In this document: positions 18,519 to 22,307 of the stretch, piece by piece | Layout of the letters: each line of letters begins with the position of its first letter | Position numbering within the stretch: the stretch's first letter is position 1 | Origin: Gammaproteobacteria bacterium | GTDB taxonomy: Bacteria; Pseudomonadota; Gammaproteobacteria; Enterobacterales; Alteromonadaceae | NCBI GenBank assembly: GCA_018222985.1 | Contig: JAAEZG010000003.1 | Span: 1 to 64,000 of the forward strand | Length of the DNA: 64,000 nucleotides | Direction: 5' to 3' | The notes under the pieces: model-generated | Seen by the model: only the letters and a program-made list of their open reading frames with translations | Told to the model about the DNA's origin: nothing | Databases searched by the model: none | Program-made: the position numbers and the translations under genes

Positions 18519-19165
18519 ACCTTAGAAAGGTCATGACACGATTGCCAATTTTTGCTGTTTCAAGCCTATTATTTTTCTTTAGTACGAATGCCAATGCCTG
18601 CTCTTGCATTGCCCCAAATACCGTGCGCGATTTCAATGAGGCGCAACACGTATTTTTGGCGCAAATAAAAGAAGTTATTGTGGTTCGCGCTGGGCATGAG
18701 GCGACCTACGACCCTGGTGAAGTTAATGGGTTATTTGACGTAGTGAAAACCTTTAAAGGCGAACCTGCTTATGTAACCCATTTAGTGGCGCAACATAAGC
18801 CTAACGGCGGAATGTGTGGCGAAACACTCACGCAGCAACTCTATCTTGTTTTTGCTCAAAGTGACGGTACGGTTGGTGTTAGCCTGTGCTCACCGACAAA
18901 AGTTGCGACGCGCTTAAGCCCAAATAAAATTGATCTTATTGAGCGCCTTGCCAACTCAGAGCAAGCCAAATATCTGAACGGTATATTTGATGCCGAAACG
19001 GGGCTTTTAGCGCTAGAGGGCAGTGCACAAGGCCAACCTATATTTGAAGGGCGTTTAGGAGTTTATGAAGGCCGCCATAGTGTTGAATTTGAAGGTTATC
19101 AGTTAACTAGTGGAGACTTGGTCATTAGCCAGGTTATAACCATCAATGAACAGGCTATGAAATAG
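18512..19165 (+). CDS. Exported protein with mature N-terminal Cys-Ser-Cys (TIMP/NTR-like)
   Basis: Function is unknown. GGAGG ten bases upstream selects the ATG at 18512 over two earlier in-frame ATGs. The 217 residues start with a signal peptide ending NANA, so the mature protein would begin CSCIAP (Cys30, Cys32). The following FNEAQHVFLAQI and two later cysteines (GGMCGE, SLCSP) resemble bacterial netrin/TIMP-like modules. The similarity was judged by eye. Its 3' end overlaps arsJ tail to tail by 11 bases. Confidence 0.6.
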   Translation: MVNLRKVMTRLPIFAVSSLLFFFSTNANACSCIAPNTVRDFNEAQHVFLAQIKEVIVVRAGHEATYDPGEVNGLFDVVKTFKGEPAYVTHLVAQHKPNGGMCGETLTQQLYLVFAQSDGTVGVSLCSPTKVATRLSPNKIDLIERLANSEQAKYLNGIFDAETGLLALEGSAQGQPIFEGRLGVYEGRHSVEFEGYQLTSGDLVISQVITINEQAMK

Positions 19166-20366
19166 CCTGTTCGCGCTTAGGAAGCCATGATACGGCTAGC
19201 GCTGCAAGCACCAGCATGGCGCTAGAAACCACTAAGCAGGCATTAAGCCCCCATTGCTGATAAACCCAACCCGACAGAACAGTACCTAGCAGACGGCCTG
19301 CGGCATTCGCCATGTAATAAAAACCGACATCGAGCGACACCCCATCGTGCCGTGAATAAGCCACAATCAAGTAACTGTGTAACGACGAATTGAGCGCAAA
19401 CAAAATACCAAAAATAGCTAGCCCAATAATGACAGTTTCAGCAACCGGCAATTGTTGCCAAAGCGCGATAGCGAGCACTAATGGCGCAGCGCATAACAAA
19501 CCAGCCCACACAACAATGTGCTGCCGTGCTGAAGCCAAGTTTGCACCGGTAAAACGTGGCGCCGCAGCCTGCACCACACCATAACCAATAACCCATGCAG
19601 CCAAAAAGCTTCCCACTTGCCAATGGCTCCAATTTAGCTGTGCAGCTAAGAAAACCGGAAGCGCAACCACAAACCAAACATCGCGCGCTCCAAACAGCAT
19701 AAACCGGGCGGCCGACAAAACATTAATCGGGCGGCTTTTTGACAGTAGCTGGCGAAACTTGGGTTTAAACGAAGCCTTCCCAACATCTTTGGTTAACACC
19801 ACCAAGCTTATTAACCACACCAATGTCAGCATAATCGCCATGCTGGCAATGGCCCAAGTGAAGCCCACCAGCGTGAGTAGCAAGCCACCTAAGAAGAAAC
19901 CAATACCTTTTAAGGTATTTTTTGAGCCTGTTAACAACGCCACCCATTTGTACAATTGGCCTTGATGGCTGTCGTCGACCAAAAGCTTAATGGTGCTTTT
20001 AGCACTCATTTTGTTCAAATCTTTGGCAATACCGGAAAGCGCCTGCGCTAGCATCACCCACAGCACCGTGAGCATGGTTGGCGGCACCAATAACATAGCA
20101 AGCGCTGCAATTTGTAGGCCTAAGCCAATATTCATGGTGCGGTTAAGCCCCCAATGGGCGCCTAACCAGCCACCAAACAAATTTGTTACGACCCCAAAAA
20201 ATTCGTAAAAAACAAAAAGCATGGCAACTTCAAGTGCGCTGTAACCAAGCTGGTGAAAATGCAATACCACCAGCATTCGTAACGCACCGTCGGTAAGGGT
20301 AAATGCCCAGTAGTTGCCGGTAACAATAAGGTATTGCCTAACCGCTGGGGCAAGCTGACTTAACAT
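19155..20366 (-). CDS. arsJ: Organoarsenical (1-arseno-3-phosphoglycerate) efflux permease ArsJ
   Basis: ArsJ is a major-facilitator permease that exports 1-arseno-3-phosphoglycerate, made from arsenate by the companion GAPDH. The product falls apart outside the cell, so the pair works as an arsenate pump. The 403 residues show about 12 hydrophobic segments and the family segments [19 protein letters not shown] and [14 protein letters not shown]. It overlaps the stop of the GAPDH gene by seven bases and is last in the operon. The assignment rests on both sequence and the GAPDH neighbour. Confidence 0.93.
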
Positions 20367-21361
20367 GAGCCAACCTTTTCAATTAGCTCAACGGTGCGAT
20401 TTGCGTAACCCCACTCATTGTCATACCACGCATAGATTTTGACATGGGTGCCGTTGATGACTTTCGTTGATAGCGCATCAATAATACTTGAGCGTGGATC
20501 GGTTTTATAATCAATGGACACCAACGGGCGCTCCTCGTAGCCAAGAATACCCTTGAGCTCATTTTGCGCGGCAGACTTTAGCCAGCCGTTAATTTCAGCA
20601 ACTGAAGTTGGCTTATTCACTTCAAATACGCAGTCAGTTAACGACGCATTGGCCAAGGGTACACGTACTGCATGGCCATCAATTTTGCCTTTAAGCTCAG
20701 GAAATATTTCCACAATAGCGGTTGCCGACCCCGTTGACGTTGGAATGAGGCTCATACCGCAAGCGCGGGCACGGCGCAGATCCTTATGCGGCGCATCGAG
20801 AATACTTTGGGTGTTGGTGAGGTCATGTATTGTGGTGATTGAGGCGTGTTTAATGCCAATTTTATCTTGTAGTACTTTCACGACCGGCGCCAAACAATTC
20901 GTGGTACATGAGGCCGCGGTAACAATTCGATGTTGTGCGGGGTCAAACAAGTGATCATTCACACCCATCACAATATTCAGCGCACCGGGCTCTTTTACCG
21001 GCGCTGAAACCACCACACGTTTTACCCCTTGCTCAAGGTAGTCATTCAGTACGCTGACGGTTTTCATTTTGCCCGATGCTTCGAGCACCACATCACAGTT
21101 GCGCCAGTTATTATCATGAATGGTTTTGTGGCGACTAAAGGCAATACGGCGCTCGCCAATAACTAAGGTGTCTCCATCGGCTGTTGCTTCATGCTGCCAG
21201 CGCCCATGTACCGAGTCAAAATTGAGCAAATGCGCAAAGGTTTCGGCATCGGCACCGGGGTCATTCACTTGCACAATGTCAAAAGCTGGATTATTCCACG
21301 CAATACGAAATGCTAAACGGCCAATGCGGCCTAAACCGTTAATTCCCAATTTAACTGTCAT
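20360..21361 (-). CDS. ArsJ-associated glyceraldehyde-3-phosphate dehydrogenase
   Basis: This GAPDH paralogue uses arsenate in place of phosphate to make 1-arseno-3-phosphoglycerate for ArsJ export. The start at 21361 follows GGAG and gives [15 protein letters not shown]; an upstream start would add 39 unrelated residues. The 333 residues have the NAD-binding [10 protein letters not shown], catalytic Cys152 in SCTTNC and the C-terminal WYDNEWGY. It overlaps the arsC-arsR stop by 11 bases and arsJ by seven. The dedicated arsenic role is inferred from these neighbours; a housekeeping GAPDH should exist elsewhere. Confidence 0.92.
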
Positions 21362-22109
21362 GCTGTGTCTCCAAATATTCTGTGCTTGCCGAACAATGTA
21401 TGGGTGTCGGGTAAAGCTGTGGATTATGGTTCGCTGTGGTGTCGATAACTTGGCCCATCCAATCGGGCATGCTTTCATTTAACCGGTAGTAAACCCAGCG
21501 CCCCTGCTTACGATCAATGAGTAACCCAAAGTCTCGTAATTGCGCTAAGTGACGCGATACTTTGGGCTGCGACATGCCGGTCGAATCGACAAAATCGCAC
21601 ACACATAGCTGAGCATGTTGCGCCAACATTAAGATCATAGACAGCCGTAATGGGTCTGCCATTATTTTGAAAAAATCTTCGGGGCTATTGAATAATTGCT
21701 TGTGCCTACTGCCTTTGCGCAAAATCAGCAAGAACATACGTATGCGCTCGCTTAACTCATGCACAGTACGTGCGTAGGCTTGCGGATCTGAGCTACTCAC
21801 CGGGTCTGGAAAGTCCCAAGCAATGAATTTGCTATCTCTAAATTCCGCTTGGCATTCATGGCGAGCGCGGTCACACAAACTAATGACATAATCAAACTCA
21901 TGGGTAGGCAAGTCAGCGAGGCTTTTGGCGCGAAGCTCCGTGGTATCCACCTTAAACTTCTGAAGTGTTTCCAGCGCTTTCGGCTCCACCGCTGTTGGTG
22001 CTGACCCAGCGCTATATACCTGAATGCCTTGGCCAACAAACTGCCGCAAAATAGCTTCGGCCATAATGGAGCGTGCTGAATTTGCAGTACACAAGAATAA
22101 TATCTTCAT
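21351..22109 (-). CDS. Fusion of ArsC arsenate reductase (LMW-PTP type) and ArsR repressor
   Basis: The N-terminal half (about 1-130) is a low-molecular-weight-phosphatase fold like thioredoxin-coupled ArsC: the active-site loop CX5R is Cys7-Arg13, the acid loop is DFPDP (99-103), and a Cys79/Cys86 pair spaced like Cys82/Cys89 of S. aureus ArsC completes the three-cysteine relay. The C-terminal half (about 140-252) is an ArsR winged helix with CVCDF (Cys169, Cys171) and [13 protein letters not shown]. The third metal-site cysteine of E. coli ArsR (CVCDLC) is replaced by Val174. It heads the operon and probably represses it from the palindromic region just upstream. Confidence 0.92.
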
Positions 22110-22121
22110 GAAGCACCATAC

Positions 22122-22162
22122 ATCTGATTAATCATATATATGGTATAGCGAATATATCAGAT
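22122..22162 (-). promoter_or_regulatory. Probable ArsR operator/promoter of the ars operon
   Basis: Nested symmetry is visible upstream of the ArsC-ArsR start: an outer inverted repeat ATCTGAT (22122-22128) and ATCAGAT (22156-22162), and a perfect 10-bp palindrome CATATATATG (22133-22142). AT-rich dyads are typical ArsR targets. A minus-strand promoter TTGCCG-N17-TACCAT can be fitted across it. Binding is inferred. Confidence 0.55.
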
Positions 22163-22191: not shown

Positions 22192-22226
22192 AAAAAGCCC
22201 GAAGGCGTAAGCCTTCGGGCTTTTTT
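22192..22226 (-). terminator. Intrinsic terminator of tRNA-Gly
   Basis: AAAAAGCCCGAAGGC (22192-22206) pairs perfectly with GCCTTCGGGCTTTTT (22211-22225) around GTAA. It starts six bases beyond the CCA end of the tRNA. A T-run on each strand means it could also work in the other direction. Confidence 0.88.
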
Positions 22227-22231
22227 AAATT

Positions 22232-22307
22232 TGGAGCGAGAAACGAGATTCGAACTCGCGACCCCAACCTTGGCAAGGTTGTGCTCTACCAGCTGAGCTA
22301 TTCTCGC
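22232..22307 (-). tRNA. tRNA-Gly (anticodon GCC)
   Basis: A complete 76-base cloverleaf on the minus strand: acceptor GCGAGAA/TTCTCGC, D-arm AGCTCAGCTGGTAGAGC, anticodon stem CAACC/GGTTG with loop TTGCCAA (anticodon GCC, reading GGC and GGU), T-arm with GTTCGAATC, discriminator T and encoded CCA. It stands alone with its own promoter and terminator. Confidence 0.98.

Follow-up and report, generated by a model that had tools for sequence, protein, structure and literature searches.

Operons built around arsJ need to be switched by arsenate, yet their usual repressor reads arsenite, and the locus described here raises the question of whether an arsenate reductase fused to such a repressor might bridge the two. 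The window (the whole stretch of DNA analysed, 64,000 nucleotides of contig JAAEZG010000003.1 from a member of the Alteromonadaceae) holds an open reading frame joining an ArsC-like domain to an ArsR repressor immediately ahead of gapdh and arsJ (Table 1), and this fusion is real, recurrent and mechanistically suggestive.

Table 1. Features of the fusion operon and its upstream region, in window coordinates.
Feature	Position	Strand	Basis
arsJ, MFS organoarsenical/arsenate efflux permease	19155..20366	-	NF033734, 603 bits, cut-off 400
gapdh, ArsJ-associated glyceraldehyde-3-phosphate dehydrogenase	20360..21361	-	NF033735, 559 bits, cut-off 450
ArsC-ArsR fusion, 252 aa	21351..22109	-	ORF, ATG start, TAA stop; Pfam; AlphaFold2
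Tail cysteine C239, putative third As(III) ligand	21393..21395	-	co-occurrence with CxC
ArsR winged-helix domain, residues 140-217, As(III) motif C169-V-C171	21459..21692	-	Pfam, NCBIfam
ArsC (LMW-PTP-type arsenate reductase) domain, residues 3-129, C7/R13/C79/C86	21723..22103	-	profiles, Foldseek
Sigma-70-like promoter CTGATA-18-TATGAT, weak	22131..22160	-	consensus scan 9/12; 6 found in the region, 4.5 expected
Operator-like site ATATTCGCTATACCATATAT (candidate)	22136..22155	-	pattern ATATN6TACCATATAT
Terminator-like hairpin, 15-pair stem and T tail, between tRNA-Gly and operon	22192..22225	-	4 found, 5.2 expected
tRNA-Gly (gcc)	22232-22307		directly upstream of operon

The initial annotation had described an ArsC with Cys7/Arg13 and Cys79/Cys86 joined to an ArsR winged helix, and the residues and both Pfam domains were confirmed, LMWPc covering residues 3-127 of the fusion (E 1.1e-17, above the gathering score) and HTH_5 residues 152-197 (E 2.7e-13, 50 bits against a cut-off of 22). 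The ArsC half carries the P-loop C-X5-R (C7, R13), two relay cysteines seven residues apart (C79, C86) and D102-P103, and the ArsR half the motif QLCVCDF with C169 and C171 intact; the roles of C7/R13/C79/C86 and of C169/C171 we take to be those of the S. aureus and R773 proteins. Of the NCBIfam models, the ArsR/SmtB metalloregulator families NF033788 and NF007528 were passed (103.1 vs 97 and 88.9 vs 55 bits, respectively); thioredoxin-ArsC models scored the fusion far below cut-off (71.1 vs 215 and 65.1 vs 174.3 bits), and the N-terminal half is for that reason filed only as ArsC-like. These low scores, together with the broken ArsC site of 5 among 73 fusions compared below, would suit a reading in which the N-terminal domain works as a tyrosine phosphatase or survives as an inert remnant, the ArsR half alone being of consequence. 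We find this scarcely credible, as all four relay residues and D102-P103 are present, arsenate reductases are the best matches in both sequence and fold, and purifying selection is strong. The solved structures nearest by sequence are ArsC for the first half and SmtB/ArsR for the second. An AlphaFold2 monomer model had a mean pLDDT of 91.1 and a pTM of 0.63, with an uncertain linker, and Foldseek searches with it placed ArsC structures at ranks 1-11 and phosphatases from rank 12 onwards, the ten best ArsC matches having target TM scores of 0.83-0.90 and the first half being the part aligned in 50 of the 50 matches listed.

Full-length fusions 96% and 94% identical to the window protein are encoded in two other genomes of the genus, ruling out a frameshift or assembly artefact as the origin of the fusion. 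Over the three pairs formed by the window protein and these two nearest relatives, dN/dS was 0.04-0.08 for ArsC and 0.004-0.05 for ArsR, values which indicate that, within this close group, both sites of the window protein evolve under purifying selection.

The earlier claim that the fusion heads a gapdh-arsJ operon is borne out by overlapping genes and by both ArsJ-specific cut-offs being passed. The fusion's stop codon (21351-21353) falls within the beginning of gapdh, whose ATG is at 21361, gapdh in turn overlaps arsJ, and ArsJ has a single match in the window's genome. The operon contains no arsenite pump. Upstream, the operator-like pattern was found, with at most one mismatch, at one place genome-wide, a count that is weak alone because a reversed-pattern control likewise gave one. 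The element CCATATAT or its complement (ATATATGG) lies within 110 bases upstream of 13/14 fusions of the genus (window included) as against 8/59 others. Control of the orphan acr3 by the fusion through a shared operator is rejected, since inspection by eye of 280 bases ahead of acr3 showed no such site and the genome has a single occurrence of the pattern. By eye, this tRNA's end together with the hairpin is also seen ahead of the fusion in other genus members, 5 of the 14 having them when the window is included.

The reading favoured here, which we hold to be evenly poised between right and wrong, is that the fusion would act as autorepressor of the ArsC-ArsR/gapdh/arsJ operon and that arsenite made by ArsC beside the sensor would induce the operon. 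In the resting state the ArsR half, as a dimer, would occupy an operator in its own promoter. Arsenate entering the cell would be reduced by the ArsC half via the C7-C79-C86 relay, whose arsenite product would be captured on the spot by C169/C171, perhaps together with tail cysteine C239; the repressor would then leave the DNA, and GAPDH and ArsJ would clear the remaining arsenate. Both domains, the named residues, the operon layout and one candidate operator can be read directly from the DNA, and we infer that the protein dimerises, binds DNA, reduces arsenate, binds As(III) and hands arsenite over locally between its halves. This self-fed sensor is favoured because both sites are intact and under purifying selection among the nearest relatives, because the best sequence and fold matches are arsenate reductases, because of the operon layout and candidate operator, because a tail cysteine accompanies CxC across the family (see below) as a three-thiol As(III) site would, and because a published ArsR-ArsC fusion reportedly responds at lower arsenic.

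Local feeding of the sensor may be unneeded in this cell, since the window's genome encodes a second ArsC-family protein as well as an orphan Acr3, the latter being its single Acr3 and lying on another contig without a neighbouring arsR. The ArsC-family gene (TIGR00014, over cut-off) is present in 26/26 genus genomes, the window's included, on which ground the fusion is rejected as the cell's only reductase, though this gene may be a housekeeping relative. ArsB was not found in the window's genome, nor in any of the 26 genus genomes. Given these genes, a somewhat unlikely alternative is one of bifunctional economy, in which ArsC carries out bulk reduction, an Acr3 encoded elsewhere exports the product and ArsR senses cytosolic arsenite whatever its origin, the fusion serving simply to hold the two gene products together, with no local hand-over. 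It would fit the Acr3 and second ArsC-family gene of the window's genome, the acr3 gene adjoining the fusion in 23/47 proteins with both sites, and the occurrence on plasmids of separate, adjoining arsC and arsR genes, which are likely precursors and are named in 23 of the 30 plasmid matches listed. Of 3689 matching plasmid records, 93 contain 80% or more of the query at a single place. Against it, Acr3 over cut-off is missing from 9 of the 14 fusion-bearing genus genomes (the window's genome not being among the nine, one of which has a weak sub-cut-off match and one of which is only 77% complete) and ArsB from all of them; with Acr3 and ArsB as the exits considered, bulk reduction would trap arsenite in these cells. 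In these nine genomes the ArsC half seems to serve signalling more than bulk detoxification, an argument that is weaker for the window because its own genome has Acr3 and a second ArsC-family gene.

The fusion is present in 14/26 genus genomes, in 12 as one two-domain match and in two (G748 and G776) as two pieces in one frame, and gapdh and arsJ are in its neighbourhood in 14/14. Across the order, window excluded, at least 30 of 197 genomes have a single two-domain match, among the matches listed. The fetched flank contains gapdh and arsJ in 21 of these 30, gapdh only on a short contig in 1, and neither gene in 8; acr3 directly follows the fusion in four of the eight (G164, G187, G011, G138), and G099, one of the 21, carries the fusion in divergent orientation to an arsR-gapdh-arsJ set that has its own arsR. 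In the named genomes, among the best 80 loci, gapdh and arsJ accompany 10/11 fusions, and a co-occurrence of fusion and arsJ, which had been put forward as a check, is thus observed both in the order (21/30) and in the named genomes (10/11). A stricter profile search of the class (E 1e-35) returned one two-domain match besides the window in 369 genomes, and outside the order the ArsC-ArsR form is thin in this sample. Around one CxC-less fusion (Vibrio harveyi NBRC 15634, L042 5989-6729), the 12.7 kb fetched yielded no gapdh and no arsJ.

ArsJ itself is present in 187/394 genomes of the order. In 100 arsJ loci, hand-picked across its genera, the regulator nearest arsJ was the fusion in 32 and a stand-alone ArsR in 55, with none found in 13. 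A stand-alone ArsR with intact motif, and neither ArsC nor acr3 in the fetched region, was present at 26 of the 100 loci, indicating that it is nothing unusual for an arsenate operon to have an As(III) sensor. CxC was missing from 14 of the 55 stand-alone ArsRs (L177, L179, L180, L182, L193, L194, L197, L205, L208, L221, L226, L227, L235 and L247). At one locus (L232, G014:C1:1-20000) a stand-alone arsC-gapdh-arsJ set occurs in two inverted copies approximately 11 kb apart, with an additional ArsC match.

The fetched loci yielded 113 fusion ORFs, of which 73 were distinct after removal of repeats. Both sites are present in 47 of these, the ArsC residues without CxC in 21 and CxC without the ArsC residues in 5, with L255, whose N-terminus is masked, counted as intact and with L278 and L279 placed among the 21 by choice; none lacks both sites, where about 1.4 would be expected if the two states were independent, a difference that is not significant. 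In the two genus fusions so placed (L278 5743-6525, G776; L279 5764-6537, G748) the motif region is expanded by insertion and contains extra cysteines and motif-like stretches. Trees built after masking of the trait columns call for 5 changes in the CxC state and 3 in the ArsC state, starred branches forcing at least 3 of the former and, in the two tree runs, at least 2 or at least 3 of the latter; these trees are unrooted and we infer the direction (loss), and both runs flag long branches, one of them flagging a possibly false long-branch join among the CxC-less rows. As judged from these residues the two halves come apart in evolution, a finding that is new from the present comparison. The ArsC of CxC-less fusions gave dN/dS values of 0.045-0.18 in 11/18 pairs, the rest being saturated, and the one pair of broken-ArsC fusions a value of 0.29. 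The acidic residue at position 102 is missing in 5 of the 21 CxC-less fusions.

The CxC state was associated with two further characters. A tail cysteine is found in 47/52 fusions with CxC vs 2/21 without (Fisher p 5e-11, kinship ignored), which suggests that it may be a third As(III) ligand, represented by C239 in the window protein; among the genus fusions with CxC it is present in 7/12 and absent from 5/12. An acr3 gene is found no more than 300 bases from the fusion for 23/47 proteins with both sites, 4/5 with broken ArsC and 0/21 without CxC, a count that includes some loci with short flanks, and the comparison of the CxC-less group with the other 52 (27 with acr3) gave a Fisher p of 8e-6, kinship ignored. 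Among the arsJ loci for which a regulator was found (87), the fetched region had no acr3 in 20/22 CxC-less and 34/65 CxC-containing cases (p 0.001, kinship ignored). Independent-pair tests on the trees were not significant, the starred branches supplying 2-3 pairs and the full set of branches 5-6. Three of the five broken-ArsC fusions (L256, L257 and L258, from G187, G011 and G138) have acr3 next to them, and their fetched flanks contain neither gapdh nor arsJ.

Since the 21 CxC-less fusions keep their ArsC residues, ArsC cannot there be feeding that motif, and an explanation other than the self-fed sensor is needed for these relatives. The boldest, which may hold for these relatives but which we regard as distinctly unlikely for the window protein, is that the ArsC half is itself an arsenate receptor, in which bound arsenate, a Cys7-arsenic adduct or a disulfide intermediate would move the winged helix and free the DNA, CxC being a dispensable arsenite input. 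Retention of C7/R13/C79/C86 without CxC in 21/73 fusions over five tree changes, at least three of them forced, would be expected of such a receptor, as would purifying selection on ArsC in the unsaturated pairs and an acr3 neighbour for 0/21 CxC-less fusions vs 27/52 others and 4/5 in the broken-ArsC state; there is also a reported precedent in TtSmtB, an ArsR/SmtB protein that prefers arsenate according to the available text of PMC5658604. Nevertheless, CxC is retained in the window protein, the loss of CxC from 14/55 stand-alone ArsRs nearest arsJ needs no ArsC half, the acidic residue at position 102 is missing in 5 of the 21, the independent pairs are too few for significance, and the absence of double loss may be chance. 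A family-wide form of the same idea, also unlikely in our judgement, is that the ArsC half of the fusions became a receptor whose arsenate-bound or oxidised state, not free arsenite, would drive the winged helix off DNA, with CxC as an optional arsenite input, retained in operons that include an arsenite pump and dropped from those dealing with arsenate alone; the window protein would then have both inputs. If true, a phosphatase-fold enzyme would have been turned into the input domain of a one-component transcription factor.

Counted against the self-fed sensor are the sub-cut-off scores with the thioredoxin-ArsC models, the 21 of 73 relatives without an As(III) motif and the 5 without a working ArsC site, the absence of a C239 counterpart from 5/12 CxC-containing genus members, and a structure model that is a monomer with an uncertain linker. 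The proposal that the reductase feeds its own sensor consequently stands as a fit to the window protein, with a reported precedent, and is weakened as a general reason for the fusion by the CxC-less fusions, the stand-alone ArsRs and the window genome's own ArsC and Acr3. With reductase and repressor in one protein, and either site missing in several lineages, the question of how arsenate is sensed becomes testable, and the family would offer natural parts for arsenate biosensors.

Each half has well-known counterparts in the ArsC of S. aureus pI258 and B. subtilis and in SmtB/ArsR, which share fold or sequence family and the key residues of the respective half but are separate proteins. A literature search, in which subscription journals were thinly covered, found no ArsC-ArsR fusion in an arsJ operon, and the available text of the arsJ accounts PMC6947025, PMC5930303 and PMC12016528 mentions no fusion. 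The gapdh-arsJ pair is shared with Pseudomonas aeruginosa DK2 (PMC6205960) and with Halomonas elongata, in which the operon is arsJ-gapdh-arsC (PMC12002479), and no fusion is reported for either in the available portions of these papers. The Vibrio cholerae var operon, arsR-varG-varH-arsJ, is described as arsenate-inducible and ArsR-repressed and, like the window operon, combines an ArsR-type regulator, GAPDH and ArsJ (PMC9601151). In the available text of that account its regulator VC1068 is called an ArsR homologue with no mention of a fusion, and the system differs from that of the window in its changed As(III) motif, an extra phosphatase, VarH, and the lack of arsenate reduction. The study reports substitutions in the As(III) motif of the V. 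cholerae ArsR, suggests that this regulator probably senses arsenate and urges further work (PMC9601151). VarH is there termed rather exclusive to Vibrionaceae. DSP-type phosphatase genes, VarH-like in kind, were seen near 33 of the fusion loci, beyond Vibrionaceae too (e.g. L037, Pseudoalteromonas prydzensis).

The initial annotation had remarked that such fusions may already be recorded, and this proved correct insofar as ArsR-ArsC proteins are published and the ArsC-ArsR form recurs beside arsJ. The accessible passages report ArsR-ArsC fusions from Leptospirillum ferriphilum, Microbacterium and Sinorhizobium (PMC6205960) and from Actinobacteria clusters C4 and C7, for which one sentence has ArsC-ArsR (PMC6514093); these combine the same two families as the window fusion and are known here by the name ArsR-ArsC. 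The nearest precedent is the Paracoccus ArsRC fusion (Chen, Galvan, Nadar, Yoshinaga, Rosen 2022, Environ Microbiol 24:1977), credited in a review (PMC9479143) with sharper sensing, on the ground that reduction takes place within the one protein, and with a response at lower arsenic, and going by that review the idea of a self-fed sensor is not new. ArsRC likewise has an As(III) repressor and an arsenate reductase in one polypeptide, but it comes from another host and its domain order, judged by its name in the same review, is the reverse of the ArsC-then-ArsR order in the window. Because of this opposite order, the window fusion is placed as a variant of ArsRC and not as a member.
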